Shown: positions 23,549 to 49,937 of the stretch, piece by piece
Numbering within the stretch: position 1 is the stretch's first letter
How the letters are laid out: each line of letters opens with the position of its first letter
NCBI GenBank assembly: GCA_029747015.1
Contig: JAKOGI010001350.1
Span: forward strand, 117,501-181,500
DNA from: Carnegiea gigantea
Lineage: Eukaryota > Streptophyta > Magnoliopsida > Caryophyllales > Cactaceae
DNA: 64,000 nt
Direction of reading: 5' to 3'
The notes under the pieces: model-generated
Database searches by the model: none
Seen by the model: only the letters and a program-made list of their open reading frames with translations
What the model was told of the DNA's origin: nothing
Made by a program: the position numbers and the translations under genes

Positions 23549-24362
23549 TGTGACACTGGCTAAATGTGGATCCTCATCATAGGCTGGTCATCCAAAAGAA
23601 GCGCCATATGGGCCTAGAGAGAGCGGCCGCTGCCAATGCTGAAGTACAGAAGTTGCTGGAGGCTAGGTTCATTCGAGAATGCCAATATCCCGAATGGATC
23701 TCGAATGTGGTGTTAGTGAAGAAACCTAACGGGACTTAGAGAATATGTGTGGATTTCATAGACTTGGACAAGGCTTGCCTGAAGGATGGCTACTCGCTGC
23801 CGAAAATTGACAAGCTGGTGGATGCCACGGCCGGACATGCCCTATTGAGTTTTATGGACGCCTTCTCCGAGTATCACCAGATACCCCTCTGCCCAGAAGA
23901 TCAGGAAAAGACGGCGTTCATCACAGACCGCGGCCTCCACTGCTATAAGATGACACCCTTTAGATTAAAGAATACAGGGGCCACTTACCAGTGCTTGGTG
24001 AATAAGCTGTTCCAGGCCCTCATTGGCCAGACCATAGAAGTCTACGTCGACGATATGATAGTAAAAAGCAAGGCCGAGGGGGATCATGGCAATGATCTGA
24101 GGAAGACATTGGATATGCTGCGGGCTTTCAGCGTGAAGCTTAACCCTAAGAAGTGCGTCTTTGGGGTACGGTCGGGCAAGTTCCTCAGCTTCATGATCAG
24201 CAGCCGCGGAATCGAGGCTAACCCAGACAAGATATAGGCCGTCCTCGATATAAAGCCGCTGCGGAATAGAAGAGAAGTACAATGCCTAACTGACTGCATA
24301 GCTGCCTTGGGCCGATTTATGTTCCGGTCCGCAGATAAGTGCCAACCGCTCTGCAAGGCCCG
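23549..24362 (+). pseudogene. Element T reverse transcriptase (N-terminal part, split by an insertion)
   Basis: It copies element RNA into DNA. The frame opens with PEEIPGIAPTVM around 23520 and carries TGA at about 23551 and TAG at about 23737. Catalytic motif A is in FMDAFSEYHQI (about 23853-23885) and motif C is YVDDMIVKS (about 24042-24068). Both keep their aspartates. There is another TAG at about 24235. The frame stops at 24362 in ...CQPLCKA, where the 4.2-kb insertion begins. The continuation (FFRIL, then FSWDQQADEAF) resumes at about 28564. One base appears to be missing across the join. Confidence 0.87.
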
Positions 24363-26259
24363 TGTCCTTTATTTTACGTTAAGTTGGCTTCCTTACATTC
24401 TATGTTACAAAATTCGTTTTTTTATTAACTATATGAGCTAAATTAGTGTCGATGTGCTTATGTAGGCGATAATTTTATTAAAAAGAATTATTATTGCTAT
24501 TATTGATTTTAAAGTTAATTCGTGCTATTTGCGCCTTAAATTATATCAATAGTTTAATTTAGTCGTCATTCGATTTATTTAGTCGTTTCCCGAGTGCGAG
24601 CAGGTTGTTAACCTTAGAATTAGTTTCGAGGTTTATTAAATTGAATCTTGACGTATTTGGGATCAAATAATAGATGAAGGGTCGTATCATCGATTCGGGT
24701 TAGGATATGAGGTACGAGATACAAATTAGACTATCAATTGACCAAAAAAAAAATGTTGAACAAAAGGGGGCCAAGCCCCTTCTCTTTCATGGCAGAAAAT
24801 CGCGAGCGATGGGGTCTCTCAAAACCCCAGCCCCGACACCCCAAACCGGAGAGGAGAAGAAAGAGAGAGAGTGAGGCGGCGGTGCTGCCGCCGACGAGGG
24901 TTGACCGCAGTTGTCCCCTCCGCGACGGCCCTGGCACGCCCGAAAATAGAGAGAGGGACCGTGAGACTGAACGAAGGAGAGAGAACGGGGGGGAACCTAG
25001 CCGATGCCGGTGCACGTAGTCGGTCACGGCACGGGCCCGATGAAGAGAAAGAAGAGGGATCGAGCGAGAGTAAGAGTGAGGTGCCTGGTCCAAAGGCTAG
25101 GGTTTTGAAGTTCTCAACCCCACGCCACCACGACCATCACCATTGACAGTGGGGCCATATCGAGGACCACCGGAGTAGCAGCAGTGGTAGCAACACAATG
25201 ACAGCAAAAAAGGGTACGGATTTCGGGTTCTTGAACATCTAAATTCAGCCCCAAAACCCCAAAATCGGGTCCTCTAGCTTGGAGTCCCGGTGGGTGCTTC
25301 TCGCCTCCTAAGTATTAGTAGTTTCGAAATGGTTTTAACCTTTAAGCTACGATGCATGTTAAGTGTAGTTAATTTATGCTTGAAAATGACTTCGAATCGT
25401 TAAATGTTAGTTTAGTTGATTAATACTGGAAAGTGGCTTTGAATCGATATATGTTAGTTTGGGTAATACATGCTTAGAAGTAGCTTTGAAATAATATACG
25501 AATACCTGGAAATGATGTCCGATAGGTTAACTAATTCATGCTTGAAAATGACTTTAAAATGAATTAAGAATGTCTATACTTGATGCATGCTAAGTGGCTT
25601 GGTTCGTATCTAAAAGTACCCTTAGAAACGACCTAAAAATGTTTTGAATTGATACTTGTATAATTAGTTGATTCATACCTAAATAGCGGTTTCGAAATGC
25701 TATGTGAGCATTCAGAATCAATGCTTGAATAGTGAGTTGGTTCATGCCTAATTAGTAGCTTTGTATTAACATGTTGATACTTCGAATCGATTCCTCTCCA
25801 TATAGGTAAATTATTTTAAATAGCCTCATTAGGCTTGAATAGTAACTTCGATGCAATAAACGAATGCCTTGAATCGTATTATGTTTAAATGGCTCAATTC
25901 GGTTCGAATAGTGACTTCGACGTAATAAACGAATCCCCTGAATTGTATTATGTTTAAGTGGCTTATTTATATTCGATAATGACTTCGATGTAATAAACGA
26001 ACGTTTAGAATCGTATTATGTTTAAATGACTTAATTAGGCTTGAAATGTAACTTTGAGACAATGAATGGATGCCCCGAATCGATACGTGCCTATTTAGTT
26101 GAATTATACTCATGAAATAACTTTGAAAATAACGTTTGAATGATGAACTGAGAATGTTTACGTCCCTTAACTGCAATACATGAATGTAATTGTGTTTCAT
26201 GCTTAGTTAATTTAACTCAACTTAATAAACGCTCGTTTCAAGTTAGGGTCGTATGAATG

Positions 26260-26290
<31 letters not shown>

Positions 26291-28560
26291 GTACGGTTAT
26301 AACCATTGGTTACAGCGTACTGCTAATTACTATTTATTTATTCGGTAAGTCAAGCATTGGTAAGTTACGTAAGTTTACATATCGCCTTTCAGTATGTCAT
26401 GATGATTAGAATACTAAATTATGAAATTGAAACCGAGATGATAGTTAGACGGTTTGAGGTAGAACTATGAGTGGTTCGAGGACCGGTGGTCGGTTGCTAT
26501 GTGAGGAGGGAGTCTGCGTTGTGATTACCACAATCTTGTGGATTACGAGGCCGTATGTGGCTCATTGTATTGAAATGATTATGAAGTGCTTGAATATATT
26601 ATGTGTAAATTCCTCCCCTTTTATGCTATTAAGATGCATTATGAGTTTGAAGGAGTTGTTTTGAAAATGGATGTTTCTTGTGTTTCAAAACAATAGTAAC
26701 CATGACTATTAGCAATCAATGGCCTATTTTGGTAATACGAACTTCGTTTTGGGAGTGAACTTGCTTAAATGGGGGAATCCCTAAAGAATTTGATTAAAAA
26801 GAAAGTGTGATGTATGAAAAGGATTTCGCTGTGAGAGGTAGCAAAATTATTAGCCGTTATGGCCGACACGCTTTCAATTGGCTAAGATAAGGTGCTTCGG
26901 ACAATTTGTTATGAATGGTGCTAGCCTAGGGAATAAGTCCTGGTACAAGGAGACCCTAGAAGATCCTGACGAGGGTAATGGTCCGATATGTTATATGTAC
27001 CCGTCCCGGGAGTAAGAGCTTAAGTGTGAGCGTTAGGTCTCACTATGGGGTTGAGAATAGTTCTCACCCAATCAGCACCCTGTATTGATCTTATGCCAGA
27101 TGTATTTTCCTAATAAGCAAAGAAAAGCAGTTAGCATTTTTCCATTTTAAGTATTTCAGAAGAAAAAAAGTTTCAAAGGCCATTAAGAGGCCAGTTGAAT
27201 GAAATGTGAAACGTTTATAAGGGTCATTATGTGACCAATACGAAAGGGATTTCCTTTAATGAAAATGAGCCTTAAAGAGGCTAAGAAAAGAGTTTTTATA
27301 GACCTCAAGAGGCTAAGCAAAGTGTTTTCAAGAAAAGAAGGAAAGCTTTCTGTGCATGTTCTGTGCTTTTCTTATGAATGAAATGTGAATGAGATTTCCA
27401 GTAAGGTAAGTCAGGTGTTTTCACAAAAAGAAAGAAAGACACATGTGCATATTCCCAGTATAACTTATGAATGAGATGCTAAGTAGGATATGATTATGAA
27501 AAGAAAGCCCTATGAGCATATTTCATGCACACCCTATGAATGAGATTTGAATGAGACTTGAAATTTGTGTGTGCCTTATGCATATCGTATGAATGAAATG
27601 CCAAGAATAGTATGATTATGAAAAGAGATAACCTTGTGTGCACATCATATGAATGAGGTTTCATGCATAGTTTAAATAGAATGCTAAGAAGTTTTGTTTT
27701 GAAAAAGAAAGATCCTTATGCTTAGCCCTCGATGCTGGCTTACGTGCTTAATTGCTTGTTAGTAAAGGAACTTAGTCATTTGGGGACCTAGAAATATGTT
27801 TGAGTAGTTAAAATAAAGTTTATGGTTAGTGATCCTTCTATAAGGATTTTATGAATGCCTAATATGATAGGAAAGTATGAATACGTGATATGTGACTATT
27901 AAAGATATTATTGCCAGCAATGGCTTTGGTTTTAAGGGCATCGGGGGACACTCATTAAGTGTGTGGTTGCTCATCCCACTACTCTTTCCCCTTTTTCCCT
28001 AGGTTTTCTTTGTGACAGGAAGAAGTTGAGTCAGCTATGTCAAGATGGAGTCTATTCTCGCTTGCAAGGTGTCATGTGTGCCTACTTATGTCTTTAATGA
28101 AGTCATGTAAAGTATTTTTAGTTTGCAAACGTTTGTAAACAATTATTCTAGTTCATGTAACGCATAAGGTATGAAGGTCGCTCTGTTTGGCCATATGAGC
28201 CAACCATCTAATTAGTTAGATGTCTTCTTGGTTAAAGTTAGTTATGTTTTTGGGATGTAAACCCCAATACTCCGGTTGTATGAAACGTTGAGTTGTATCT
28301 TTTATTTATTCTGTATTAATGAACTATTCTGTTTGGTGTACTCCGAACGAATGGCTCATTGAGTTATGGACTCCGGCATGTAGTCGTTGAGCTTCTTTTA
28401 AATGTTTTACGCTTCCGTTGATTTGCAGGGGTTTATTATAAGGTTTTTAGCTTGGAAACGGTCAGTTTTTAGGGAAAACTCTGTCCATTTTGCCTCAGAA
28501 TTTTTAGGAAAAAGTTAAGAAAACGTAGCGCTCCTGGCCGTAGGGGCTGGGGGTGTTACA
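24363..28560 (+). mobile_element. 4.2-kb solo-LTR-like insertion in element T's RT gene
   Basis: It starts TGTCCTTTATTTTACG and ends GGGGGTGTTACA, the style of chromovirus (Tekay/Del-type) LTRs. There is no primer site, gag or pol inside. The flanking coding sequence is RT on one side and RNase H on the other, so the insertion is certain even though no clear target duplication remains (GCCCG left, CATTC right). It holds a GA-rich GC-rich stretch near 24850-25120, two regions of degenerate tandem repeats (about 25320-26190 and 27100-27700) and a CT/AT microsatellite at 26259-26285. Open frames at 24738-25146 follow the purine-rich composition and are not credible genes. A truncated or rearranged element is the alternative. 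Confidence 0.68.
25320..26190 (+). repeat. Degenerate tandem repeats (about 70-75 bp) in the 4.2-kb insertion
   Basis: Units share GACTTCGATGTAATAAACGAA, a following GAATCGTATTATGTTTAA and GTGGCTTAATT-like words. They recur about every 70-75 bases, best seen at 25850-26050. Divergence is high, so the copy number (about a dozen) is approximate. Confidence 0.6.
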
Positions 28561-29074
28561 CATTCTTCCGCATCCTATGACAGCGGGCCAACTTCAGTTG
28601 GGATCAGCAGGCGGACGAGGCTTTCTAGGCCTTGAAGGCCTACCTGGCCCATCTACCCAAAGTAGCCAGCCCCCTGGAAGGGGAAATCTTAGTACTATAT
28701 TTGGCTGTCTCAGAGCACGTGGTTAGCGCTATTCTCGTAGTAGAAAGGGAAAAGGAGCAGATCCCTGTATACTCTGTGAGCCGCGCCTTGGTAGGGGCGG
28801 AAGTAAACTACCCTCTTATTGAGAAGTTTGTTTATGCCTTAGTAATGGCCAGTCGAAAGTTGAGGCCCTGCTATGAGGCTCACAAGATCTTAGTCCTAAC
28901 TGTTCAACCCTTCAAGAATGCCCTTCAGAAGTTAGATGCCTCAGGGAGGCTCTTGAAATGGGTCGTCGAACTCTCCCACTACGACCTGACCTTTGAACCA
29001 CGGAGAGCCATCAAAGCCCAGGTGCTGGCTGACTTCTTCGCTGAAAACACAACCCCCACCAAGGAAGGTGATTT
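28561..29074 (+). pseudogene. Element T RNase H (gypsy type)
   Basis: It degrades the RNA strand during reverse transcription. The frame resumes after the insertion with FSWDQQADEAF, then a TAG at about 28627, ALKAYLAHLPKVASPLEGE, YLAVSEHVVSAILVVERE, PVYSVSRALVGAEVNYPLIE and ALVMASRKLRPCYEAH. It ends with the HYDLTFEPRR connection segment. The catalytic Asp expected in the YLAVSE segment is replaced, as is common in Tat elements whose second RNase H takes over that function. Confidence 0.82.
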
Positions 29075-29582
29075 GCGCCCGCGGCCTTGGAGCCTATACC
29101 TGGATGGCTCGTCCACTGAGGATGGGAGTGGGGCCGGACTCATCATCCAAAGTCCCAACGGGTCATGGTACGAGCATGCTTTGAAATTCATGTCCAAAGC
29201 GTAAAATAATGAGGCAGAGTATGAAGCCCTCATTGCGGGAATAGAGTTATGCTACATAACAGAGGCGGACTCTGTCCAAGCCTTCTCTGACTACCAGCTA
29301 GTCGTCAGTTAACTCAATGGTGCATATGAAGTGAAGGACGACACTATGGCCGCCTATGTTCTACGGATACAGGAGGCAACTAAATTACTAAAGCATTTTG
29401 CAATCACGCACATTCCTCGCTCAGAGAACCGACATGCCAATGCCCTGTCTAAACTTGTGAGCTTATCTGAGGACGGGAAGCCCAAAAACATTCAGTGGGA
29501 AACCTTAACGGAGAGGATTATCGAGCTACATGAAGTGCTGTGGTTAGACAGAAGGTGCACTCTTAGCCCTAATGGGGGCTAA
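29075..29582 (+). pseudogene. Element T second RNase H (plant/archaeal type)
   Basis: It follows the first RNase H directly in the same frame. The motif sequence is WSLYLDGSSTEDGSGAGLII, then NNEAEYEALIAGIEL, FSDYQLVVS, and HIPRSENRHANALSKL. The catalytic series (D in LDGSS, E in EAEYEAL, D in FSDYQL, D or N near HANAL) can be followed. Stops fall at about 29203 and 29310. This second RNase H marks the Tat lineage. The frame runs out in tandem repeat sequence at 29557-29582, where an integrase should start. Confidence 0.85.
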
Positions 29583-29960
29583 GGGCCCCTGAGCACGGCC
29601 TTATGGCCGTTCGCTACACTCTTAGCCTCAATGGAGCTACGGGTCCTTGAGCACGGTCTTATGGTCAGTCGCTACACTCTTAGCCCCAATAGGGGCTAAG
29701 GGTCCTTGAGCACGGCCTTATGGTCGATCGCTAGACTCTTAGCCCAAATGGGGGCTAAGGGTTCTTGAGCATGGCCTTATGGCCAGTCGCTACACTCTTA
29801 GTCCCAATGGGGCTAAGGGTCCTTGAGCACGACCTTATAGCCAGTTGCTACACTCTTAGCCCCAATGGGGGCTTAGGGTCCTTAAGCACGGCCTTACTGC
29901 CGATCACTACGCTCCTAGGCCCAATGGGGGCTATGGGTTAACGAGCACGGCTTCCGGGCC
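29557..29960 (+). repeat. 59-bp tandem repeat array 1 (about 7 units)
   Basis: Units of 58-59 bp read CACTCTTAGCCCCAATGGGG, then GCTAAGGGTCCTTGAGCACG, then GCCTTATGGCCGATCGCTA. Each unit contains two inverted repeats able to form hairpins: TTAGCCCC-AAT-GGGGCTAA and CGGCC-TTAT-GGCCG. The array abuts the end of the second RNase H frame. Array 2 at 33261-33840 has the same unit in the same orientation. Confidence 0.9.
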
Positions 29961-30312
29961 GATCACAATGCCGGTGAGGTATTCCTTAGCCCTCTCACAC
30001 ATCACTTATTCTTTCGTTTGGGGGCTACAACCCCACGGCATATGAAGACAAGAACAAAGCCACAAGCTAAAACAAAAGAACAAGTATGAACCAGAAAAAT
30101 GGCCAACGATAGAAGCTGGGTGCCAGAAATGAACGTTTTTCATTAGTGATGTACGAGTACAATCTCTAATTAAAGAAAAAACAAACAAACAACACCACAA
30201 AAAAACAACGAGGAAAAAGGAGGGGGTTACACATTAGGCTGCCCACTATCCTCATGGCCCTCCTCCTCAGAAGCCCTGACCTCAGTATCCAGGGGGTTGG
30301 TTGCCTCATCCC
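29961..30312. other. Non-coding spacer between array 1 and the antisense gene
   Basis: This holds the downstream side of the antisense gene's stop and A-rich sequence (30050-30220). On the minus strand it could contain the gene's 3' untranslated region. I saw no integrase remnant on either strand. Confidence 0.5.
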
Positions 30313-32829
30313 CTACACCCCGGCCCTCACCGGAAGGGGGAGTAAATCCACTTCCTCGGGGTCACGGCCTTCATCTTTCGCCCACTGACGCTCGTCCACA
30401 TCGTGGTGGTAAGCCTCAAAATAGTTGTCCACCTGAAACTCTGGAGCTACCGTCACCAAGACTTTGCGTAAATACCCTAGGGTATTAGCGCGGCCCTACT
30501 GGTAACCTTGCTCCTTCGCCTGGGCCGCCCTTTCCGCCCCTGCGGCCGCATCAGCCTCGGCCTTCGTAAGCGCCTCCTCTAGCTGGCACTGTAAGCTCTT
30601 CTTGCCGGCTTCACGGGAGTCCAAATCAGCCTTCAGCTTTTCTCAACGCCGCTGGTGCGGAGTGACAAGCCCCTCCAATCTTCTGCATTCCACTGTAGCT
30701 CTCACCCCTCGGCCAAAGCTACTTCCTCCTCTGTGACCTTTGGGACATCCGAAGCACCAGGGGTGGCTAAGTCCCAGGACTTAACTAGGTCCCGGATGAG
30801 TGAGAACTTGGCAGCGAAATCCGCCCTGATGAAGTTGGTGGATGGCCACTGGGTGATTAGAGGGGAACCGCCAGCAGCTTGGGAAGCGACGCCTACGGTT
30901 TTGGAAGGGGCGGCTTGTTCCTGAAGGCCGGGGGTGTGATCCCCAGATGACCGGTTTTTCGATTATTGAGGGGCAGACCGTCCGGCTCCCGCTTCCCCCA
31001 CTTGAGAAGGAGCGGATGTCGCGGTCCCGTCTAGACAGCCCTCAGTCCGTTGCCGCTTACAAACCAGTAAGCTGATGGTGGGCTTCTTCCCGTGTGGAAT
31101 GGGGGGTGCCTACGAAAAAAATAACTTAGTCAGCAAAATTCAGGGATCACGAGAAAGGGGGGACAAATAAGGTTATAAATTGTATCTTCTTGGCTTGTTG
31201 GGTGACAAGGCGCTGCCTCTCCTCTTCTCACCGGTGCTCGACATTAGCTCCCACTTGCTCTAGAGTGGCATCCCCGGTCTCGAAGACCATCAACCTTGCC
31301 CTCATTTATTCTGCATAAAACAAAAGGGAAGTCAGGTCAGCACCAAACATAGAAGTGATTAGCATTAGGACGACCAATACCCTTGGAAAAATTCTAAAGG
31401 ATCAAAAGGGCGGCTGCGGCGAGAAAGAAATTGTTTGCAAAAAACTTCAACTTAGGTAGCCAATTCAAAGGCTCCCTATCACTGGACTTGCTCTTCCTCA
31501 TCTTGGGGCCCTTCACAGACTCAATTGCTTGAGCCATAAACTTGGGGATGGGCCGAGGCTTATTGTCCTCCCGTATGTAAAACTGGAAGTAACGGGCCGT
31601 CTTTATCTCCTCAGCTGTGGGCTCCCTAAATGGGTTCCTCACAGGTTTACCCTCGTTCCAGTCAGGAATGTCTAGCTAAGCTGACTCTTAGTGCACGAAG
31701 AAGAAGTCATACTTTTAGTGCTTCACCTTCGATTTCTTCCCGATGGCCGTTATGAAGCCCGACCTATTGTTGAAACAATACCACCCTAAGTTCCCGATCT
31801 CTTTGGGAGCCCTCTGGACCGTATACACGAGGCTAAACGCCCATGCTGAGCAAGTGAGGCTGTACAGCTCGCAAGTTGTGATGAAAGAGCAAATGTTGTG
31901 CCATGATGTGGGCACAACTTGCGCGGGCACCAGTTCATAGTTGTTTAGGATCTCTTCAATCATCGGATGAAGAGGAAATCAGAGACCATAGTTAAGAGCC
32001 AAGCGATAAACAGCTATGCATTTTGTGGGCGGCTCATTCACTGTGGCATCCGTGTTGAGGATCGCGAAAGTACACCCGGCAGGCAGAAGGTACTGCTTCT
32101 TGAGGGCCGACCTCTTTAATGTAAGGACGACCTTCGGGTTAGGGAAGTGACTGCTCGGACCATCCTGCAGATCCCAGCAGGTTGGGGGCCTTGGGAATTC
32201 CGGCCCTTCTGCCACAATCTCTGCCACTAATCCTTCAGGCGCACGACCTTTTCTTTTAAGCACTGATTTTCCCGAAGTCGATGACCCTTCAAGAGATGAA
32301 GAGCTAGTTGACGCCCCTTCTGAGGATGAACTCCTCGATGAATTGTCAAAAGTGGAGCTGGAGGAGGCCCCCCTGAGGTAGAGTTATAACTAGTGGAGGC
32401 CACTTCGGCCCCCAGTTTGGATGAGGATGGAGCTGAACAGGGATTACCTTATGTACCCTCAGCTAGCAGCTCGTCAGGAGACTTGATGCGTGGAGTAGAC
32501 TTGGTCTTCGCCATTGTTCGAAACTGGAAATCAGTCATATAATTAGCTATGGTGATCTCCCAGGGATATGTCACCTCCACCTCTGGGCAGAGGACACTAG
32601 GGTTGGAGGAGTACTCGCAGTGGGACCACGAGGGAGTGCCCGGTTCAAAAAGAGGCACCGCATAGGGAATCTTTTTAGGTTCCCCACATTTATTCTTTCG
32701 GGGGATGCCGGCCACCACCTGGCCATTGATAAAGGCCAAGAGGCTAGGGAATTACGGGTGCCGGCCCTCCACTTAGGGGCCGGCCAACCCTTGAAAAACG
32801 TCTCCACCTGATGAGGAAGACGATGACAT
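30313..32829 (-). pseudogene. Antisense gene of element T, Transposase_28-like, with two apparent introns
   Basis: On the minus strand from ATG 32829 (MSSSSSSGGD), blocks read in order as a Pro/Trp-containing segment (KKIPYAVPLFEPGTPSW), MAKTKSTPRI at 32514, and a Ser-rich linker near 32290-32350. Next comes a conserved-looking domain with LNNYELVPAQVVPTSWHNI (about 31955-31895), GNLGWYCFNNRSGF and EIKTARYFQFYIREDNKP (about 31610-31560). The C-terminal part (about 30660-30315) is helical and charged (QLEEALTKAEADAAAGAERA), then APEFQVDNYFEAYHHD, and ends at TAG 30313-30315. Splice-like signals mark intron 1 (31380-31311; GTATTG...TTTTATGCAG) and intron 2 (about 31185-31110; TTTTTTCGTAG acceptor, donor decayed). 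At least six stops and a frameshift near 32400 disable it. It resembles the plant family labelled putative gypsy-type transposon (PF04195). Antisense genes are known in some Tat elements such as Grande. Function unknown. Confidence 0.62.
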
Positions 32830-33089
32830 AATATACAAGAACAAACAATGCTTCGATGGGGCACAGGGGTGAACCTGTATAAGATGAAGATTCGAGGGAG
32901 CTGTTTGAAGATGAGGATGAACACTCAAGCAAACCTTTAAAGATACAAAGGGGGAGCTTGAGACACTACAGTGAATTTGAATGCGGAATGGAGAGGGGGG
33001 CTGAGCTTCTCTCTCTAGAAATTGTTTCTCTCTCTAGGGGGATGAAATCTGCGGTGAGCAAATGACCCCTCATTTGACGAATCCTCACC

Positions 33090-33097
33090 CTTATATA
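33090..33097 (-). promoter_or_regulatory. TATA box for the large antisense gene
   Basis: The minus strand reads CTCTATATAAGGG around TATATAAG (33097 to 33090), about 260 bases before the proposed ATG at 32829. No competing TATA box is closer. It lies between array 2 and the gene. Confidence 0.55.
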
Positions 33098-33260: not shown

Positions 33261-33840
33261 GCCTGGTCCTAGGGGCTGGGGGTCCCTGAGCACGGTCCTA
33301 TGGCCGGCCGCTACACTCCTAGCCCTAACGGGGCTTAAGGGTCCCCGAGCACAACTTTATGACCAGTCGCTACGCTCTTAGCCCTAACGGGGGCTAAGGG
33401 TTACTGAGCACGGCCCTATGGCCGGTCACTATGCTCTTAGCTCCAATGAGGGCTGATTGTCCCTGAGTACGGCCTTACGGCCGATCGTTACACTCTTAGC
33501 CCCAATGAGGGTTGAGGGTTCTTGAGCACGGCCTTATGGCCGATCGCTATGCTTTTAGCCCCGATAGGGGCTAAGGGTTCCTAAGCACGGCCCTATGACC
33601 GGTTGCTATGCTCTTAGCTCCAATGGGCGCTAAGGATCCCTGAGGACGGCCTTATGGCCGGGCGCCACGCTCTTAGCCCAGATGGGGGCTAAGGGTCCCT
33701 CAGCACGGCCTTGTGGCCGGGCACTACGCTCTTAGCCCCAATAGGGTCTAAGGGTCCCTGAGCATGGCTTTATGTCTGATCGCTACACTCTTAGCCCCAG
33801 TAGGGGCTAGGGGACACACGGGATGGCCTTATAGCCTTTC
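33261..33840 (+). repeat. 59-bp tandem repeat array 2 (about 10 units)
   Basis: It has the same unit and orientation as array 1 (29557-29960), including both hairpins, for example ACGGCCTTATGGCCGATCGC and TTAGCCCCGATAGGGGCTAA. Units vary by point changes and single-base indels. It separates the large antisense gene's promoter from the four small antisense genes. Confidence 0.9.
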
Positions 33841-33971
33841 ATAACGCATAAATGCAAACAAACAAGTACAAAGGGGCTAGTCATATCAAGGTCTTTTATT
33901 ACAATAGCTAAGATCAATACAAGCACAAAAACGAGCGTGCAACGGAAACCACTATGCCTACTCCTCGTCGA

Positions 33972-34367
33972 TCAACGGGGGGGAGAGGCGCGTCCCTTTG
34001 CGCTGAAGTCGTCGTTGGGCATTTTGATTTTGTCCTCAATAAACAGCAGCCACGCTTCAATGGCATCCCATCTCAGCTTCCGTAAATCTGATATCAGGCC
34101 TTTCCCAGTCTCCCTCCTAATGAGCTGTAGCCTTGTTGCATCATTGATCACCATCGCATAGAAGACGGCTTGCACCATCTCAGAGATATAGGTAGCCTGT
34201 GCAAATTGCATTCCCATGATGTGGTTGAATTCGGGGCAATAGGCCGAGAAGTTCCAAGGGAGCAAATTCGGACGAAGGCTTGACGTTTCCCTCTTGGACC
34301 AGCGAAGGTTGTCCCCAACATACTCCACCGCCTGTACGGTGTCACGGAAAGAAAGGAAGGAGGACAT
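33972..34367 (-). CDS. Small antisense gene a of a four-copy tandem family (unknown function)
   Basis: Family not recognised. From the ATG at 34367 it gives about 131 residues. It shares with copies b, c and d an N-terminal EYV..N..W-type segment (AVEYVGDNLRW), a Cys-Pro segment (AYCPEF), a central helix (YISEMVQAVFYAMVIND) and a C-terminal DLRKLRWDAIEAWLLF. It has no in-frame stop, so it is one of the two intact copies. I saw no TATA box of its own. It starts 70 bases after the stop of copy b, so it may depend on b's promoter or may have lost its own. An upstream ATG at 34397 in the same frame is possible but less like the other copies. There is no signal peptide or membrane segment. The protein looks soluble and mostly helical. 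Confidence 0.55.
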   Translation of the reverse strand: MSSFLSFRDTVQAVEYVGDNLRWSKRETSSLRPNLLPWNFSAYCPEFNHIMGMQFAQATYISEMVQAVFYAMVINDATRLQLIRRETGKGLISDLRKLRWDAIEAWLLFIEDKIKMPNDDFSAKGRASPPR

Positions 34368-34436
34368 CCTCCCCCCAGGGGGATCGCCCTCCAGCACAGG
34401 GTTTGCCGGGGGGTCCGCTGGGCCAGAGGCCTGAGG

Positions 34437-34790
34437 TCATAGGAGCCTTTGATCGTTATCCTCGAGCCATGCTTCTACAGGGCCCCAGTCCAACTTTCGC
34501 ATAGCCGACATCACGCAGTCCATGGCAAGCCTTTGTGAAAGGCCCGACTCAGCAGCGTCATCTATGACCATGGCATAGAAGACTTTCTGCACAATCTCTG
34601 GGATGTAGGAATCATGGGCATATCGCCTCGCCATCTCGAGGTCAAAACGGGGGCACGGGCCGTGGTAGTCCGATGGAAGCGGCCTAGGACCAGGATCCGT
34701 GGGATCCGTCAATGACCATTGGAAGTGGTCACGAACATACTCAGCCGCCTGCTCGGTGTTGGCGAAATTGGGGAAGAGACCCCAGTCCAT
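34437..34790 (-). CDS. Small antisense gene b of the tandem family (unknown function)
   Basis: Family not recognised. I chose ATG 34790 (MDWGLFPNF) because a TATA box at 34855-34861 overlaps the more upstream possible start at 34856. The product is 117 residues. Shared features are AAEYVRDHFQW, PRPLPSDYHGPCPRF, YIPEIVQKVFYAMVIDDA and MRKLDWGPVEAWL. The frame is intact. The order of conserved parts is the same as in a, c and d, so the four arose by tandem duplication. It shows no similarity that I can see to gag, protease, RT, integrase or envelope proteins. Confidence 0.58.
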   Translation of the reverse strand: MDWGLFPNFANTEQAAEYVRDHFQWSLTDPTDPGPRPLPSDYHGPCPRFDLEMARRYAHDSYIPEIVQKVFYAMVIDDAAESGLSQRLAMDCVMSAMRKLDWGPVEAWLEDNDQRLL

Positions 34791-34854
34791 TCTCTTTCTC
34801 TTTTCTCGCTTTCGTCCGCAAATGAACGTATGAAAGTCTGCGGAGACCACCACC

Positions 34855-34861
34855 ATTTATA
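34855..34861 (-). promoter_or_regulatory. TATA box for small antisense gene b
   Basis: The minus strand reads CAATATAAATGG, 65 bases before ATG 34790. Copies c and d have a TATA box at a similar distance. Confidence 0.5.
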
Positions 34862-35217
34862 TTGAAGGGGACCGATGTTCGAGGAAGTGCAACTACCGAG
34901 GGGGGCAGCCAGCCACCCCAACCTCGCCACGTTGCCACTACGACAAATATCTTGTCTTAGAATTAAAATGTAAGCATTTTTTAAAGCCAATCATTCAACG
35001 CGGAGCGCTAGCTAAGCCGGGAAAGAAACGGTTCATCATGTCAAAGAAATACTCTTTTTATTATCAAACCCCCCCATAAGGGGCGGCCTAAGGAAAAACA
35101 AAAAAGACAAACGAGGACGAACAAGCAGGGGCAATACAAGAAAAGATTCGAAATAAAACTAAAGCTACTCCTCATCACTAAAGGGGCCGAGGGGCCTTTC
35201 GATCTAGAGCTCTCTTC

Positions 35218-35614
35218 CTAACCGTCCAAGGGACCCCGGGCCTCCACTGCAACGGCCTGCTGCGGAAGCTGCGCTTCCCTCAGTTCGTGATCGACACAGC
35301 CCATCCAGACTTCAAAACTCGACCACCTTAGACCGACCAGGTCGATTTCAGACCTTCGGCCATAAAACCGCTTGCCACGCCCAACTCGACGGCCTCCTTC
35401 AATAGCATGGCGTAGAACATCGCCTGCACCATTTCCGGGAACTCAAAGTCTATCACTGCGCCCTCGGCTTCGGGCAATGAAAGCGTGGGCATAGGGCATG
35501 AAAATCTTCAAGAAGGGGACGAGGCGAACTCAAAGCTCTCCTCCAATGCCAGACAAAGGACTCCCTCACATGCTCGGCCATCTCCCTATTGTCGTACAAA
35601 GGAGGAAATGCCAT
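35218..35614 (-). pseudogene. Small antisense gene c of the tandem family, frameshifted
   Basis: From ATG 35614 (MAFPPLYDNREMAEHV) the frame has the family's N-terminal half, including PRPLLEDFHALCPRF, then shifts near 35470. The second half continues in another frame with FPEMVQAMFYAMLLKEA (about 35440-35390), shifts again near 35340, and ends with LRWSSFEVWMG up to TAG 35218-35220. It is a broken copy whose conserved blocks are in the same order as in b. The start MAFPP closely resembles d (MAFPR), so c and d are probably the closer pair. Confidence 0.58.
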
Positions 35615-35717
35615 AGTAACAGGAGAAAACGAGTATGTCGATCGCTCTCTCCATGCTTTATACCACTTCCCCTGGGAAGACAAATACCTAAACATCCTAT
35701 GAAGGAGCATGAAGCTG

Positions 35718-35725
35718 TATTTATA
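35718..35725 (-). promoter_or_regulatory. TATA box for small antisense gene c
   Basis: The minus strand reads CTATAAATACAG, about 104 bases before ATG 35614. Confidence 0.5.
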
Positions 35726-35981
35726 GAAGGGGAATATGAAGAACTAGAAATAGGGGAAATTTCCACGGGCCCGATGGCCAATTCATCTTAAACACGTGGC
35801 CATCTAGTCAATACAAATTGAGACCATTACGAGCAAAGTAATGATTATTTAAAAAGATATGAAAGCACTGTCTTTTATTACTGTCGGGATAGGCAATACA
35901 AAAGAGAGACAGGATAAAAAACTTGTAGGGGCAGGGCGCCCATTCATAGGCTTAACAGCCTCACCCCTACTCGTTACCATC

Positions 35982-36458
35982 CTAAGGGCAGGCCGCCTTC
36001 TCAATGGCCGAGTCCTCATCCTCCAACTCCACCTCCGAGCCCTCTTCCTCTCGACCGGTTCCTGAACTCTCTGCTGATCCGACCTTTGGACGGAATTGAG
36101 CTTCGAAAATTCGGTCACCATACAGCCAGACCCACGACTCGAAGGTGCTCCAATGGAGCTCAATGAGGGCTGACTCCAAAGACCGAAGCGCTCGTCTTTG
36201 CATGACCCCAAGCCTTTTGGCCTCGTTCAGAAGCATCGCGTAGAAGATCACCTAGGACAGCTCCTGGAGTTCATAGTACGTGGCGGCCTCCTCAACCACG
36301 GCCACCTCAAAGCTCGGACATAGGGCCTGAATGTCTTTTGCGAGAGGCAACGGGGGAAAGGCAACCCCACGTCGGTCCCATGCGAAGTGGCGGATGACGT
36401 ACTCACCCATTGCCTTAGTATTGAAGGAGCGCGGGAAAGCCATGGAGAGAACACCCAA
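35982..36458 (-). pseudogene. Small antisense gene d of the tandem family, one internal stop
   Basis: The start is ATG 36458 (MGVLSMAFPRSF) or ATG 36443 (MAFPRSF, which fits copy c better). The frame is open to 35982 except for one TAG at 36252-36254, where copies a, b and c have Gln, so CAG to TAG is likely. Shared blocks are GEYVIRHFAW, DIQALCPSF, VIFYAMLLNEAKRLG and ALIELHWSTFESWVWL. It has an extra C-terminal acidic tail (EEEGSEVELEDEDSAIE) that the other copies lack or have lost. Function unknown. Confidence 0.6.
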
Positions 36459-36511
36459 TAACGACTATCACCAAATAAGGAAGAATGAGACACCCTATCA
36501 CCGATAGTTAC

Positions 36512-36519
36512 CTTTTATA
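36512..36519 (-). promoter_or_regulatory. TATA box for small antisense gene d
   Basis: The minus strand reads TATTATAAAAGG, 54 bases before ATG 36458 or 69 before ATG 36443. Confidence 0.55.
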
Positions 36520-36717
36520 ATAGAGGAAGTGACAGTTTTGTACAACTACCATCCAGGCTTAAAAACCTCTGCAGCTAAGGATGGTGGCCCCTAGGCTGTC
36601 CATTACAAGGGCCCAATTTCTGAAGACCCCAGGATGCATGCTGACCATCGACAGTGCTCGGCATTCTACCTGACTACTCACCCTGCTCGACATACAGGTA
36701 AAATGTGGCGGGCTAAG

Positions 36718-37237
36718 TGATTGGGGAAAAATTCGATTTCCCCCAAAATGGGCCCATCCGAGTCAGGCCCGTAGACAAGGCCCATACCTAGGATAATGGG
36801 CCCAAAGACACCACCCTAGGGACTCTCCCATGCCCATACTTGTGGTTATAGGCCCTGAGACGCAACCCTAGGGGCTCCTCCTAGGGCCCTTCCATGCCGG
36901 GACTGACGGCCCACGCAGGGTGCTCCAGGTAAGATTATTGTCTTACCCTTTTTTCGAAGGGAATATAAATAGTCACCTACCTTCCTCGGGAAAAGGGTTG
37001 GCAATCTGACAAACTGAATTGACTTTGCATCTTTCTCTATTGACCTTTGACTTGGACTTTGTGCTGACTTGAGCATCGGAGAGGCGTTCCCCAGTCCACA
37101 ACCCGAGGGTGTCCTTTTTGCAGCTGGGGCCGTTTGGAGAAGAGGACGTGAGGTGTTACGCGCCAGCTGTCGGATAAACCCGTGCCTTCGTCTCACATCA
37201 TCATCAACCGTAGCTTCAAATATTTCCTCCGGAATCA
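36718..37237 (+). repeat. Element T right (3') LTR
   Basis: It is 520 bp, running from TGATTGGGG to CCTCCGGAATCA, and is followed by the CTACC target duplication. Its TATA box TATAAATAG is at 36964-36972. The purine-rich sequence just before it (AAAATGTGGCGGGC, about 36700-36713) is a weak polypurine tract. Confidence 0.9.
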
Positions 37238-39804: not shown

Positions 39805-41922
39805 TGTAAAACCCCGAAACTCTAATTTCATTTCTCATTTACTAACCTTTAATATACGTGGCAGCGGAACCTAATTGGGGTGTTACTGCCGTATTCCTTC
39901 TTGGAAATATCAGGCTGGATATTGAACTAATAATTAATACAATAAACTTAATAATACTTCAATCTCAACATTATTCAAATACTAGCAACAACTACTAAAT
40001 CAAAACCAATATTCATAGTAAGCTTTGTCTTAACAACTAAACTTTCATCTTCTTTGACTCATGTGTTCGGGCCTCACTCTACTTTCAGTTCTCCAGTCCC
40101 ATGCACGACTAAATCACCTAAAAAATAAATATTTTATAAAAGTGAGATAAATGTAGTAAACAATCATCCCTAGCAGTCAACTGGCACATAAATTCATTTT
40201 GAAAATATTTTAATGGGGCAGGGAAAACAACAAGACTCTCAAGACATATTTCTCATTAACATAGCCTTCCATAGTTACCAGCTTGTATAGATGTAAATTC
40301 ATAATTTATGATACAAACACAACAGTCAGATTTTAGGTGAGCGACCCTACGGGGTCTCATGTCCTATGTCTCAGTTCAACGCAGCCACTTAACTCGTTCC
40401 TAGCCTACCGCTACTCAGGCGGTTACTGCTCAACCCTTTCCTGGCCCACCACCAACAGGAATGGTTACCGCTAACATGGCCCACGTCTCAACAGAGCACG
40501 TGGCCGCTTACATACATGCACTACTTTCCTGAGGAAGGCTAATGGCCTTCAATCCACACAGTCAGATTAAATCTCACCCGACTCAGCCTTTACAGTTGTT
40601 GATTTCATTTCTTCCTATTGGAGATCGATTTAGCATAAATGAGTTCATTCAATCTCAGCCACTTCCCCCAATGGCAACACCACAGCAATAAAGCAGGAAT
40701 TTCTAACAAAACATGACAAGGTCTCAATTTCATAGCATATCACGTCATACAGATTCTGCTATGTAGTTATATTCAATTAACTTATGATATCGTCCCTTTA
40801 AATCAATAAACAGGACAGTTCTTACCATGTTCAATGCATACATACTTACAAATAACTTGGAAAAGGGTTAGGGCATGATTGTTACCTAGATACTGTATAA
40901 GTTACGGGCTCAATTACTATTCCAAACTTACTGCTCTGCACCTGGGCCAACACAAAGCCCACACTCAGTCTAAACTCAAATAAATTACCCCCTGGTCTTT
41001 TTCTTACGTCCATAATTTTATAAAATTTTACCCATGCTTTAAGGGCCCCTAATTCAAGCCCAAACTAGGGTCCATATTCGGGCAGAACCTAGCCCCACTC
41101 CAGAGGCCATAACTTCTGGTTCCAATGTCCAATTTAAATTTTTTAGCCTAATCCAGAAACTTTGAGTCGTTCTCTACCCCTGTCATGTTCAGAGTTTCAC
41201 CCGGTTCCATCCCAAACTAGGTTGTTTTTTCACTTATTTTAGTCATATCACTAACTATCTTGGCCTGGACAATCCATGATAAACTGGTTATAATTTAGGC
41301 CATGTTGTCCCAATCAGTCCGATTACAAAAGAAGGTCATGTGACACATCTCGAGGCATCCACCCTAAAAATTTGATGATTTGTGGCTCACTGACCCACCC
41401 TAGGTGAATTTTCAAAGTGGTTGTAGCTGCAACCCACTTTCCAGCCCAGCATACCCAGTCCTGATTTCCTAACCGGATTTTCTAGCCCCATATGTTTCCC
41501 ATCCAACATCCAAAACTCAAACTCTTGCCCATTCCAAAAAGAGGAACTTGTCCTCTACAACTTTCGTGTTTTGTGTTTTTACTAATTCTCTCATTATCCA
41601 CGCCGAAAACCCTAAAATATGCAAATTGTCCTTGACTATCCTAGTCCAGATAGTGTCCCATAAACAGACCATAACTCTTTCGATACGCATCGAAATCCAT
41701 TGATTCAAAAGGTGTAGCATAGAGGACGATGTGATCTATCCACCCTCCAACTTTGACAATTTTTAGGCTAGAATATCAATGGAAACAATATTTTTAAAAT
41801 TATGTGTATTTTCTATCCTCAACAGTGGCATGTTCCTATCAGACCTCAATCCAAAACCCAATCTTCTTAGTCCAATAATCACATTCTTAAGTCTCGGGAT
41901 AACCCATATAAAAATCTAATGT

Positions 41923-41954
<32 letters not shown>

Positions 41955-42496
41955 GAGAGAGAGACAGAGATAGAGAGAGCACGGGAGAGAGAGAGCACGA
42001 GAGGAGGAGAGATATTGAGAGGAAAAGAGAGAAAGAGATAACTTGAGAGGGGGCGGTTTAAGGTTTAGGGGCCGGTTGGCCAAGGGGGGAAATTAGGGTT
42101 TGGAGGGCAGGTTGGCCAAGGGGAAAAGAAAAGAGGAAAGAAAGAGGGAAAAAAAAAAGAAACGGAAAGGAAAGAAAATGGAAGAAAAGGAAAGAAAATA
42201 AAACACATTCTAAGGTTGATTTGGGTGAGTTTGGGAGGGAAAATTTTACGTTTCAAAATAAAATAGATAGGAGGGAAAATAAATGAAAAGGCTAAATTAT
42301 TGAGTTATGAAGCATAACCCGCAAGTATTTAAATCAAGGAAAAACAAAATATTCCGGATGAAAAAAATAGATAAAATAAATATTTGAGAAAAATTTAAAA
42401 GACACAACTCGTGGCGAAAGAGGTTTAGAACGACTTGGACTACGACGATTGGTCCATCTCACAAGATTACCCAATTTGATTTTCCTGGGTTTTATA
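39805..42496 (-). repeat. Element C left (3') LTR
   Basis: It is 2692 bp. Compared with the right LTR it has about 1.4 kb of extra sequence (about 40467-41870). It lacks about 320 bp that the right LTR has (about 49545-49865). It contains a GA-rich microsatellite (41922-42050) and, near 42060, a GGCCGGTTGGCCAAGGGG-type segment repeated at about 42105. The inner end has TA instead of TG (minus TATAAAACCC). Confidence 0.85.
41922..42035. repeat. GA microsatellite in element C left LTR
   Basis: Long runs of GAGAGA are interrupted by ACAGAGA and GCACGAGAG words. The counterpart in the right LTR is 49873-49995. Open frames of Arg/Glu or Leu/Ser runs here are artefacts. Confidence 0.85.
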
Positions 42497-42498
42497 TA

Positions 42499-42509
42499 CT
42501 GCCCCACTT
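42499..42509 (-). other. Polypurine tract of element C
   Basis: The minus strand reads AAGTGGGGCAG, two bases from the 3' LTR. Confidence 0.7.
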
Positions 42510-42589
42510 AAGAAACTGTCGTCCCCGAAACTTCACTAAATGGCGACACCCTACTATTACGAACATGAATTTTCCGGGGTTTTGCACAA

Positions 42590-43100
42590 CTTAAAAGGTT
42601 TCGTCCTTGAAACTTATACGCATCTGGTTATAGGAACAAGTGAGGGTATTTATCTCGCATTTCCTGCTCCGACTCCCAAGTAGCTTCAGACATCTCATGG
42701 TTGGCCCAAAGAACCTTCACCAGGGGTACCATCTTCCTTCGGAGGTGCTTTCCCCGCCAATCCAGGATCTGTATAGGTTGTTTCTCATACGATAGGTCTT
42801 CCTAGAGCTATATAAGATCAGGCTAAATTATGTGTGAGGGATCTGGAATGTATTTCCGTAACTGCGACACGTGGAATACATTATGTACTCTTGGGAGTTC
42901 GGGCAGTAGCTCCAGTCGATAAGCTACTTCCCCAATTCTCTGTATGACGGGGTACGGCGCGATGTACCTCGGGCTAAGCTTTCCGGCCATCCCAAATCTC
43001 GCGAGTCCCTTGGTTAGGGAAACTCAAAGGAATAATTGATCTCCTGCTTGGAACTCAAGGGGCCTACGCCTCCGATCGGCATAGCTCTTCCGGCGGCTCT
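42590..43100 (-). pseudogene. Element C integrase C-terminus and chromodomain-like tail
   Basis: In the pol frame, LSPRYIAPYPVIQRIGEVAY (about 42990-42930) is the usual segment after the integrase core. It is followed by a VFHVSQLRKYIP-type stretch. The tail (about 42800-42625) reads LSYEKQPIQILDW, LVKVLWANHE and SEATWESEQEMRDKYP. This has the conserved W...ATWE pattern of the plant chromovirus chromodomain, which targets integration to marked chromatin. Several stops lie between the blocks (near 43000, 42830 and 42800). Confidence 0.75.
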
Positions 43101-43990
43101 GGGCGGCTCTCATTCACTCCTGGATCACCTTTATTTTATCTGTGGTGGCTTGGATTAACTCCGACCCAATGGTCAAAGCTTCATCAATCTCCTGCCAATA
43201 AAGCGGTGTTCTGCATTTCCTCCCGTAAAGTGCTTCGTATGGGGCCATGCCAATACTCACGTGGTAGTTGTTGTTGTAAGAGAACTTGATCAGCGATGGC
43301 TGCTCGTCCTGCGCACTTTTAAAGTCCAAAGCGTAAGCCCTTACCGTATCTTCTAATGTCTGAATAGTGCGTTTCGTCCGTCCGTCCGTAGCGGGGTAGA
43401 AGGCAGTACTAAAATGCAACAACGTCCCAAATGCTTTCTGTAGCTTCTGCCAGAAACCCGACAGAAACTTGGTGTCCCGATCCGACACGATAGAGCTAGG
43501 TACCCCGTGTAATCGCACTATCTCCTCGAGATATGCTCGAGCTAATTGGTCTAGGGTCCAAGTATTTCTCATGGGTATAAAGTGTGCTGTTTTTGCGAGC
43601 CTGTCCACGATAACCCAAATTGCGTTATTCTTCTGCTGAGTCAAAGGTAGACCCACCACAAAATCCATGGATACCGAGTCCCACTTCCACTCGGGGACTT
43701 TCAGGGGTTGTAAGAGTCTCGCTGGTCGTTGATGTTCTATCTTCACCCTTTGACAAGTTAGGCACTTTGCCACGTAATCGGCCACTTCTTATTTCCTGTT
43801 ACTCCACCAGAATGTCTACTCTAGGTCCTTGTACAGCTTATTTCCCTCAGGGCGTACCGAGTGTGGAGTATTGTGACCCTTGTCTAAGATTTTCTTCTTA
43901 AGTGCCTCTATGGCTGGCACACACACCCGATTATGAAATCGAATAGTGCCATCTTCATGAATTATAAACCCGGGTGCTTTTCCCACCAAT
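43101..43990 (-). pseudogene. Element C integrase
   Basis: It inserts element DNA into the genome. The zinc-binding region at about 43880-43750 ends in CLTCQRVKIEHQRPARLLQP. The core follows, with the first Asp in SMDFVVGLPL, the second in SSIVSDRDTKF, and TDGRTKRTIQTLED where the third catalytic residue should be. Counting 35 residues on from the second Asp falls on Lys (AAA) where the family has Glu, so the catalytic triad is broken. Stops lie at about 43813 and 43788. The frame otherwise stays open to 43114. Confidence 0.85.
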
Positions 43991-45400
43991 ATTTCTTCCC
44001 TGATCCGTTCGACTTGGGGGTCCATAGTCTGGGCTATCCGAATCTCTTCTGTGAGTGTCGGCTGCACTTTCAAGGCGCAAAGTATAGGCTTAACCCTCGG
44101 GGTGATCACATTAAGTTCTAACTTCCGAAATTCCTCGTGCAATTTATTCGGAAGTGCTAGCAAGCAGCCTAGTGTTGTATACGGTCGATGGCTTAACGCA
44201 TCTGCTGCTACATTGGCCTTCTTGGGATAATATTGGAAATGGACATCGTAGTCTTTTAGAAATTCTTGCCACCTTGTCTGTCTCAGATTTAGATCCTTCT
44301 GTGAGAAAAGGTATTTCAAACTCTGGTGGTCAGTGAAAACTTGACAATGTACCCCATACAGGTAATGCCTTTAGATCTTAACTGCAAACACGACCACCGC
44401 TAACTCCAGGTCATGAGTCGGGTAATTCCGCTCATGTGTCTTTAATTGTCGTGAGGCATAAGCTATGACGTGGCCCTCTTGCATTAATACACACCCCAAA
44501 CCGCTTCTAGACGCATCGCGATACACTACGAAATCTTTGTCAGTAATAGGTAAGGCAAGTATCAGTGCACTCATCAATCTGTTTTTAAGCTCATGGAATG
44601 CTTCCTTACATTGCTCCGTCCATTGATACTTAGTGACCTTCCTGGTAAAGTTGGTAAGCGGGGTGGCAATTTTTAAGAAATTTTGAACAAATCTATGATA
44701 GTACCCTGCCAAACCCAAGAAACTCTTCACTTCTGCTGGGTTCTTAGGTCTGGGCCAGTTTGTCATAGCCTCTATCTTTTGGGGGTCCACCGACACTCCT
44801 TCGTTGGATACTATGTGCAACCAAAACTAACACTTTGATAATTTGGCGTACAACTCATTTCTCCTCAATACTTCTAGGACTGTCCGTAGGTGGTGGGTAT
44901 GCTCCTCTGGGGTCCTCAAGTAAATTAGGATGTCATCTATGAATACCACCACGAATTGACACAAGTAGGGTTTGAAGACCCTGTTCATAAGATCTATGAA
45001 TGCTGCCGGGGCGTTGGTGAGGCTAAAGGGAATTACCACAAACTCATAGTGTCCGTATTGGGTGCGGAAGACAATCTTGGATATATCCTCGTCCCTGATT
45101 CGGAGTTGATGGTACCCTGAATGAAGGTCTATTTTAGAAAAGGTCCCTGTGCTCCGTAACTGATCAAATAAGTCATCTGTCCTGGGCAGAGGGTAGCGAT
45201 TCTTGACCGCTATTTTGTTCAGCTCTCGGTAGTCTATACACAGTCTTAAGGTCACATCCTTCTTCTTCAGAAACAAAACCGGGGCTCCCCACGGGGATGT
45301 ACTAGGCCAGATATACCCTTTCTGTAAGAGTTCCTCTAACTGTGTCTTTAATTCTTTGAATTCTGCTGGTGCCATTCGATAAGGTGCCCTAGAGATAGGT
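43991..45400 (-). pseudogene. Element C reverse transcriptase and RNase H
   Basis: It is one reading frame. RT has [31 protein letters not shown], motif A in [13 protein letters not shown] (about 45155) and motif [12 protein letters not shown] (about 44950), with catalytic aspartates kept. A TAG at about 44827 replaces the usual Gln or Glu after LSKC. RNase H has [36 protein letters not shown], and [11 protein letters not shown] with [21 protein letters not shown] stop lies at about 44371. The domain order and FIDD box are those of Ty3/gypsy pol. Confidence 0.9.
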
Positions 45401-45631
45401 GTGGCATGCCGAGGATTTCATTGAAAAACACATCTGAAAATTCCCTCGCCATGGGGATATCCTCTAGGGAGGATTTCGCGTCCTCGATTTTCACGACGTG
45501 ACACAGGAATCCTCGCATCCTTTGCCTAACAACTTGCGAGCTTTCATTACCGACACTAATTTCACTCCTATTTTGGGTCTCTGACCCCTATGCACTACCT
45601 TCTCCCCATTGGGCCCTTTTAGGGTGATTTT

Positions 45632-45985
45632 TCATCTTGGGCGGTCTATCTGAGCCTGATACTTAGCTAACCAGTCAATCCCCAAGATAACCCTAAAATT
45701 AGTTAACTCAAACCTATATAGGTCTACCAGGAACTCATATTCATACATTCTACTAGGGCAACCCTCATATAGCTCCTCACACATTACAGTCATCCCATTA
45801 GGGAAAATCATAGATAGCAATGAACATTTATGAGTGGGGATTAGTCCTAAGGTCTCAACCAGCTTAACAGAAATAAATAAGTGCGTGGCACCCGAATCAA
45901 ACAAAACTTCTACTAGCTGAGTTAGAAGAGAGAAAGTACCCATCACAATATTAGGAGCATCCTCTGCTTCCTCCTTCAGCATCAC
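45632..45985 (-). pseudogene. Element C aspartic protease
   Basis: The minus frame at 45632-45985 has the active-site motif VLFDSGATHLFIS and ends with LGIDWLAKYQAQIDRPR, both typical of chromovirus protease. It is in a different frame from the RT block, so a frameshift lies between about 45630 and 45380. This could be programmed or mutational; the other damage favours mutation. Confidence 0.85.
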
Positions 45986-46039
45986 ATAGAGTCTGCCCCA
46001 TTATTCCGGGGCGGTTGTTTGGGAGGTTGGGCTTGAGCT

Positions 46040-47100
46040 TGCTGAGGTGCCCAGTTCTACTGGTTAGGTTGGCCACCTGCCTTCCCCTGTTCTGAGATGG
46101 TTAATGGGGTCACTGCCCTTGCCCTTGACCCTGGCCTTGCCCTTATCCAGTAGGAGGTAGAGGGAGTGGGCAGTCCCGAACTTGATGCTAAGGGCTTCCA
46201 CAACGAAAGCACCTCTTCACCGAGCACCATTTTTCGGCATAGTGACCGGGCTTCCCACAAGCATTATAGGTTACCTTAGGCTGTGTATTAGGGTGTTGGC
46301 CTCCCCGATTAATACTGTTCGAGTGCTGATTCTCCGTAGGCCGATGATATTGCTCTTGCGGTTGGAAGTTGCCCTGGTTATCTCTCTTCCTCATAGTTCC
46401 CCGCTGCTCATTGAAGTAGTTACTCCGCTCTTTCGTCGCCCTTTCTACGTTGACTGCCGTGTCGTATAGGTCAACATAGGAGGCGTACTAACGTATTAAC
46501 ATCCTTTCTTTGATGGTGGGGTTTAGCCCGGCCTCGAACCGGTTTATCTTCAGCCTTTCATCAGCTACGAAGGCTGGGGCAAATCGTGAGAGCTCTATAT
46601 ATTTGGAGGCGTACTTGAGTACACTCATGTTCCCTACTGTAGTTGCATGAACTCGCCCTCCTTGGCCTTTTGGAGGGAGATAGGGTAGAAATGATCCTTG
46701 ATCATTTCCTTGAACTTGTCCTAATTAAATTCGGATTCGTGTTGTCTCTCCCTCACCGTGGCCCACCATAAGTCAGCCTTGTCCTTCAAATAGAACATAG
46801 TGAAATCCACCTTCCACTCCTCAGGGCATTGAGTGCATCGAATAGTTTCTCCATGCCCCTAATCCAATCTTTGAAAGTCTTAGGGCTGGGAGTGCCGTCA
46901 TAGATGGGTGGGTGATGGCTCGCGAATCTTTTAAACATATAGGAGTTATCCTCCTCGATCTTTTTTTCCCGAGCCTCCATTAGCCTGTACAGCTGCTCGT
47001 TCTGGAGTCGCAGGTGCTTCCCTTGTTTCTGTAACATCTCCAGCAGTAACAAGTTAGTGAGTTCAGCTCCAGTGTGCGGATTAGTCTCATCCATCTAGCT
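46040..47100 (-). pseudogene. Element C gag
   Basis: ATG 47094 (MDETNPHTGAELTN) opens a frame with a probable coiled coil (LLLEMLQKQGKHLRLQNEQL) and the capsid-type PIYDGTPSPKTFKDWIRGME. A shift near 46830 leads into DKADLWWATVRERQHESEF, and later FAPAFVADERLKINRFEAGL and RATKERSNYFNEQRGTM. Two zinc-knuckle-like motifs follow: ACGKPGHYAEKWC (about 46250) and CFRCGSP (about 46200). It has several stops and shifts. Confidence 0.82.
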
Positions 47101-48805: not shown

Positions 48806-48822
48806 CCCGAGCTCTGAAACCA
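48806..48822 (-). other. Primer-binding site of element C
   Basis: The minus strand reads TGGTTTCAGAGCTCGGG, three bases after the 5' LTR end (TTACA-AAG-TGG). It differs by one base over the first 12 from the initiator-Met primer site. Confidence 0.8.
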
Positions 48823-48825
48823 CTT

Positions 48826-49898: not shown

Positions 49899-49937
<39 letters not shown>

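Follow-up and report, generated by a model that had tools for sequence, protein, structure and literature searches.

Candidate antisense accessory genes for four related, predicted helical domains in a probably Retand-like retrotransposon of the saguaro cactus

The window analysed here, a 64,000-nucleotide stretch of DNA from the saguaro cactus Carnegiea gigantea, contains a 16.8-kb LTR retrotransposon with a cluster of four similar minus-strand blocks between pol and the 3′ LTR (Table 1). The LTR pair is 87.8% identical by blastn (K80 0.134, about 0.067 per lineage), and the copy is old and decayed. Within pol, a PF13456 domain directly follows the RNase H domain PF17917, and we take a match at this position to be the aRH domain. 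Since an aRH domain in pol is a mark of the Tat clade (PMC6317226), we assign the element to that clade. From aRH to the 3′ LTR it has about 7.2 kb with antisense frames inside, the long pol-to-3′ LTR region that is a trait of Retand elements (published lengths 2,933–6,566 bp; PMC11963269), and it is probably a Retand-like LTR retrotransposon.

The aRH domain, which in Retand elements stands between RH and integrase, here comes after RH, and a 59-bp tandem array begins 67 bp past it. No integrase was seen between the second RNase H and this array, as judged from the layout rather than from an integrase profile; because there is no room for one at 29491–29558, this copy of the element, or its family, may be unable to integrate by itself. 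The same 59-bp repeat occurs on both sides of an antisense TRP28-like gene, and its unit contains palindromic stretches by eye. The insertion that splits pol is perhaps another element's solo LTR, also by eye. Elsewhere, the window contains a repeat pair of 87–88% identity (39805–40466 with 48826–49488, and 41923–42494 with 49887–50456, within 39805–50456), minus-strand frames at 43117–45417 that look by eye like a gypsy-type pol, and plus-strand frames at 60348–62854 that resemble, also by eye, the endonuclease and reverse transcriptase of a LINE.

Table 1. Features of the element, by position in the window
Feature	Position	Strand	Basis
5′ LTR	20413–20927	+	blastn pair with 36722–37237
gag piece (between the LTRs)		+	PF03732
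Reverse transcriptase fragment	23740–24234	+	PF00078, E 7.8e-21
Insertion of ~4.2 kb splitting pol	24380–28565	.	reverse transcriptase ends before, RNase H resumes after; edges approximate, by eye
RNase H of pol	28629–29201	+	PF17917, E 4.2e-14
Second RNase H, read as Tat-clade aRH	29079–29491	+	PF13456, E 8.4e-18, X at stops; edges by eye
59-bp tandem array, first block	29558–29938	.	Tandem Repeats Finder
TRP28-like antisense gene, decayed	30200–32924	-	frames and TATA-like box at 33097; extent by eye
59-bp tandem array, second block	33272–33813	.	Tandem Repeats Finder
AATAAA after c1	33895–33900	-	consensus
c1, second domain of third gene	33972–34367	-	open frame, 131 aa
c2, first domain of third gene, frame shared with c1	34437–34790	-	open frame, 117 aa
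TATA box of c2–c1 unit	34855–34861	-	71 bp before ATG
AATAAA after c3	35057–35062	-	consensus
c3, second gene, frame broken	35218–35614	-	homology scores, codon-position identity
TATA box of c3 unit	35719–35725	-	111 bp before ATG
AATAAA after c4	35874–35879	-	consensus
c4, first gene, one in-frame stop	35982–36443	-	frame, homology scores
TATA box of c4 unit	36513–36519	-	76 bp before ATG
3′ LTR	36722–37237	+	blastn pair with 20413–20927

Going inwards from the 3′ LTR along the minus strand, one meets the blocks in the order c4, c3, c2, c1. A preliminary description of this DNA had placed four paralogous frames on the antisense strand of a Tat-like element, and both frames and setting were recovered, with the blocks on the minus strand, gag and pol on the plus strand and a second RNase H in pol; only the ATG of c4 shifts, to 36443 from 36458. 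Its account of their condition stood for c1 and c2, which are open, and for c4, which has one in-frame stop, but not for c3, which has more than one break and lies in pieces in three frames.

Several comparisons bear on the origin of the blocks. First, their proposed paralogy is borne out by pairwise local scores of 127–210 against shuffled maxima of 45–57, with all six pairs above every shuffle (1,000 shuffles per pair, c3 and c4 entered with X at their breaks). Second, in a protein-guided alignment of c1 with c2 and of c3 with c4 (184 codons together), identity at the three codon positions is 0.60, 0.65 and 0.45 (positions 1 and 2 versus 3, p = 1.5e-4), a bias that points to protein-coding descent. 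The view that c1–c4 are homologous, coding in origin, antisense and carried by a Tat-type element is supported. The openness of c1 and c2 is not in itself evidence of selection after insertion, because neutral decay at the LTR divergence leaves each of them open in about 0.4 of simulations.

Third, the preliminary description had regarded a lack of similar frames in related elements as a sign of chance, and the search for such frames found hundreds of homologous proteins: c2 alone retrieved 26, a profile of all block types 462 and a shorter profile 169, of which the best 120 of the 462 and 120 of the 169 were examined. Among the matches listed, Carnegiea gigantea is the sole named source, and the rest come from metagenome contigs that may well be plant DNA; a scan of viral contigs with one relative (P0006) gave no further one. 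Such frames enter protein databases as host 'hypothetical proteins', with at least 131 saguaro entries. Among these, the order c4–c3–c2–c1 is kept in 111 of 119 multi-domain proteins, each domain being named after the window block that gave its best BLAST match (c3 entered with X at breaks). That many relatives keep both the order and the domain fits the earlier suggestion that the genes were useful to the element. In all eight exceptions c1 is followed by a domain labelled c2; in P0029 and P0031 this domain is a further paralogue type.

That further type was observed in P0029 (181–296), P0061 (168–283), P0103 and P0124. It stands after c1 in some saguaro models and was not found in the window by tblastn of the blocks, so the number of domains in the cluster seems to vary between elements. 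Another saguaro entry, P0034 (Cgig2_006575, hypothetical protein), is 99% identical to c2 over 79% of that block, and in its c1 part it does not differ from the window c1 over 111 columns; it reads as the public gene model of the window locus, but lacks the sequence surrounding the c2–c1 stop, much as if the model had been given an artificial intron at that point.

A tree built from 166 domains over 116 columns, unresolved at many of its forks and with a bootstrap yet to settle, separates c1 and c2 from c3 and c4 with support of 100/100, the one exception being P0150, labelled c2, on the c3 and c4 side. Within it, c1 forms one group (100/95) and c3 another together with P0150 (97/99); c2 is a group that contains c1, and c4 falls into two parts plus one single row, so that neither is a clean clade. 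The tree requires 4 label changes, against a mean of 85.1 for shuffled labels. From this we infer that the domain was duplicated before the sampled element copies spread; the cluster would have arisen when a single gene for the domain was duplicated in tandem.

The domain itself, of about 110 residues, is confidently predicted to be helical. The AlphaFold2 model of c2 has a pLDDT of 85.8, and that of a c4-type relative, at 85.0, has its main helices in the same order. An acidic C-terminal tail probably belongs to the domain: SSDEE ends 14 of 244 proteins exactly and a looser acidic pattern 27 of 244, against shuffled averages of 0 and 0.4. By eye, the proteins with this tail belong to the c1 and c3 types and to further ones, and the c4-type tails are a variant of it.

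In agreement with the preliminary description, the domain matched no described family in the databases searched. Searches of Pfam and NCBIfam with the blocks and their relatives gave scattered matches below cut-off, the best of them PF08831 on P0115 (E 0.0054, 17.2 bits versus 25), and the NCBIfam result says little because that collection was built for bacteria and archaea. The PDB gave no sequence match at E 1. Fold searches with c2 against the PDB and BFVD, and with the c4-type model against the PDB, returned matches at noise level only, which is no proof of a new fold. Among the matches listed from the open-licence literature, no title or abstract opening names a tandem paralogous set of this kind.

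Next to the cluster in the same element, a weak PF04195 match in a decayed frame (31715–31963; E 0.0057, 17.3 bits, below the cut-off of 26.2) points to a TRP28-like gene. Kinship of the c-block family with this gene or with the element's own gag was considered and rejected, as hhalign found no profile similarity in seven pieces. PF04195 had no match in five window pieces, 16 profile members and seven relatives of the c1–c4 family, and the c1–c4 profile reached an hhalign probability of at most 0.4% against five pieces of the TRP28-like gene, a weak test because the targets are single sequences. The positive controls, c1 at 99.9% and c4 at 100%, are partly circular because c1 and relatives of c4 sit in the profile.

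The preliminary description had counted four genes with separate promoters; shared frame and motif placement instead indicate three units, the last of which encodes two domains. On the minus strand of 33500–36720 (3.2 kb), TATAWAW and AATAAA occur three times each, by consensus match only, and these six motifs bracket the three units. A Markov model expects 0.48 and 0.47 occurrences, and three were reached in 1.6% and 1.2% of 1,000 simulations; the chance of a TATA box 40–130 bp ahead of all three starts is about 1e-6 under the same kind of model, with starts treated as independent. That three blocks have a TATA box was thus seen correctly before, but at the distances in Table 1, counted from the first base of the box, rather than 54–104 bp. 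Within 40–130 bp of its ATG, c1 has none. It lies in one frame with c2, from which a stop and 23 codons divide it, and of 113 metagenomic relatives nine have two domain matches, eight of which on reading run from c2 into c1 (P0025 is ambiguous); these eight proteins are the main reason for a two-domain third gene. The shared frame, the relatives that read through and the fit of three TATA boxes with three AATAAA signals argue for three genes rather than four. On this sequence evidence we hold with good confidence that the cluster comprises three putative transcription units, c4, c3 and c2–c1, with four domains. The motifs, all of them predicted, are placed as for antisense transcription from an own promoter, a trait of the maize gene23.

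An unlikely alternative is a single spliced gene, with c4, c3, c2 and c1 as exons of one antisense protein. Saguaro gene models do join the blocks (among the 131 in the matches listed, 44 join c4–c3, 14 c4–c3–c2, nine c3–c2, nine c3–c2–c1 and two all four), and the frequent c4–c3 joins could mean either a spliced gene or over-joined models. Automatic gene models tend to merge neighbouring frames. None of the 113 metagenomic proteins, presumably called without introns and many of them short fragments, joins c4 to c3 or c3 to c2; TATA boxes and AATAAA signals lie between the units; and by eye the c3-type models share the acidic tail and stop of the c1-type.

The promoter-like antisense motifs inside the element also fit a reading in which the antisense RNA is the useful product, pairing with the genomic transcript and tuning expression of the element with the proteins incidental, a role that has been proposed (PMC7264820). 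We regard this as quite unlikely: the codon-position bias and a predicted fold shared by paralogues that have diverged deeply argue for selection on protein. That the domain is small and helical and has been duplicated within a retroelement also brings to mind a particle-forming or particle-modifying function, as a gag- or capsid-like assembly or restriction factor, and a capsid chain (4xfz) is among the Foldseek matches to the c4-type model. That match is at noise level (E 9.9), hhalign against two pieces of the element's gag gave 0.1% and 0.2% (a weak test with single-sequence targets), and such a function appears very unlikely. LTR elements are known to capture genes (PMC11963269), and a host family could have been captured and expanded within the element; with no named homologue outside saguaro and no annotated domain among the proteins listed, this origin is highly improbable. 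Chance frames in duplicated non-coding DNA, which might be suspected from the stops and frame breaks of the window copy and from the roughly 1% of cases in which a 117-codon frame of matching composition is open by chance, are scarcely credible and were set aside in view of the hundreds of homologous proteins, the scores of all six pairs, the codon-position bias, the c1 and c3 tree groups and the confident fold.

The blocks are thus very probably coding antisense accessory genes of the element. The fuller reading, in which they are Retand-like accessory genes in three units with four domains and act most likely as regulators, is the one we moderately favour. Each unit would be transcribed from its own antisense promoter, without dependence on the LTR, and the small proteins encoded would work in trans, most probably regulating the element (its transcription or silencing, for example) and perhaps together with the TRP28-like protein. 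The regulatory role itself, suggested by analogy with TRP28 and gene23, is conceivable but tentative. More speculative still is the wider proposal that a multi-gene antisense regulon evolved in this lineage of plant LTR retrotransposons, in which, beside a TRP28 gene, a helical family not described before gave rise by duplication to three genes with their own promoters and four specialised domains, its order fixed during diversification of the element, reaching a complexity like that of the accessory sets of complex retroviruses.

What antisense accessory genes do in plant retrotransposons is left open in PMC11963269 and PMC7264820; a tandem family with a confidently predicted fold and many element copies makes constraint, expression and binding of the domains testable. 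The accessory genes of complex retroviruses, including the antisense HBZ, are likewise small and extra and some are antisense, an analogy taken from PMC11963269 that implies no homology with the c blocks, and none was found. Closer at hand, the maize element Grande has in its long 3′ internal region the antisense accessory gene23, which uses a promoter of its own; it is described as one gene with a nuclear product (PMC7264820). The eORF-3′R of Neumann et al. (2019) are also reverse-oriented extra ORFs in the 3′ part of Tat-clade elements, from a study that sorted the eORFs of Ty3/gypsy elements into 314 groups; the count was limited to those of 250 codons or more, and the single-domain units of the c cluster are shorter (PMC6317226).

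Antisense accessory genes in the Retand lineage are already published (PMC11963269, PMC7264820). In the survey of Vicient (2025), which drew on 617 assemblies and whose Table 1 does not include saguaro, all 63 Retand clusters analysed have an ORF of more than 600 bp between pol and the 3′ LTR, mostly antisense, and all but two encode TRP28 (Transposase_28, PF04195), whose function is given as unknown; ORFs of at least 600 bp were counted, together with shorter ones with TRP28 (PMC11963269). The c cluster suggests that surveys with size cut-offs of 600 bp or 250 codons can overlook short accessory genes. Like it, TRP28 ORFs are antisense and occupy the pol-to-3′ LTR region, which often has tandem arrays (PMC11963269). 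The c-block domain has no sequence or profile relation to TRP28 that we could find, and whereas TRP28 is described, as far as that account goes, with one domain per gene (PMC11963269), the c cluster has three short units with four related domains; as far as the portions of these sources consulted extend, a second, tandemly expanded antisense domain family beside TRP28 is new.
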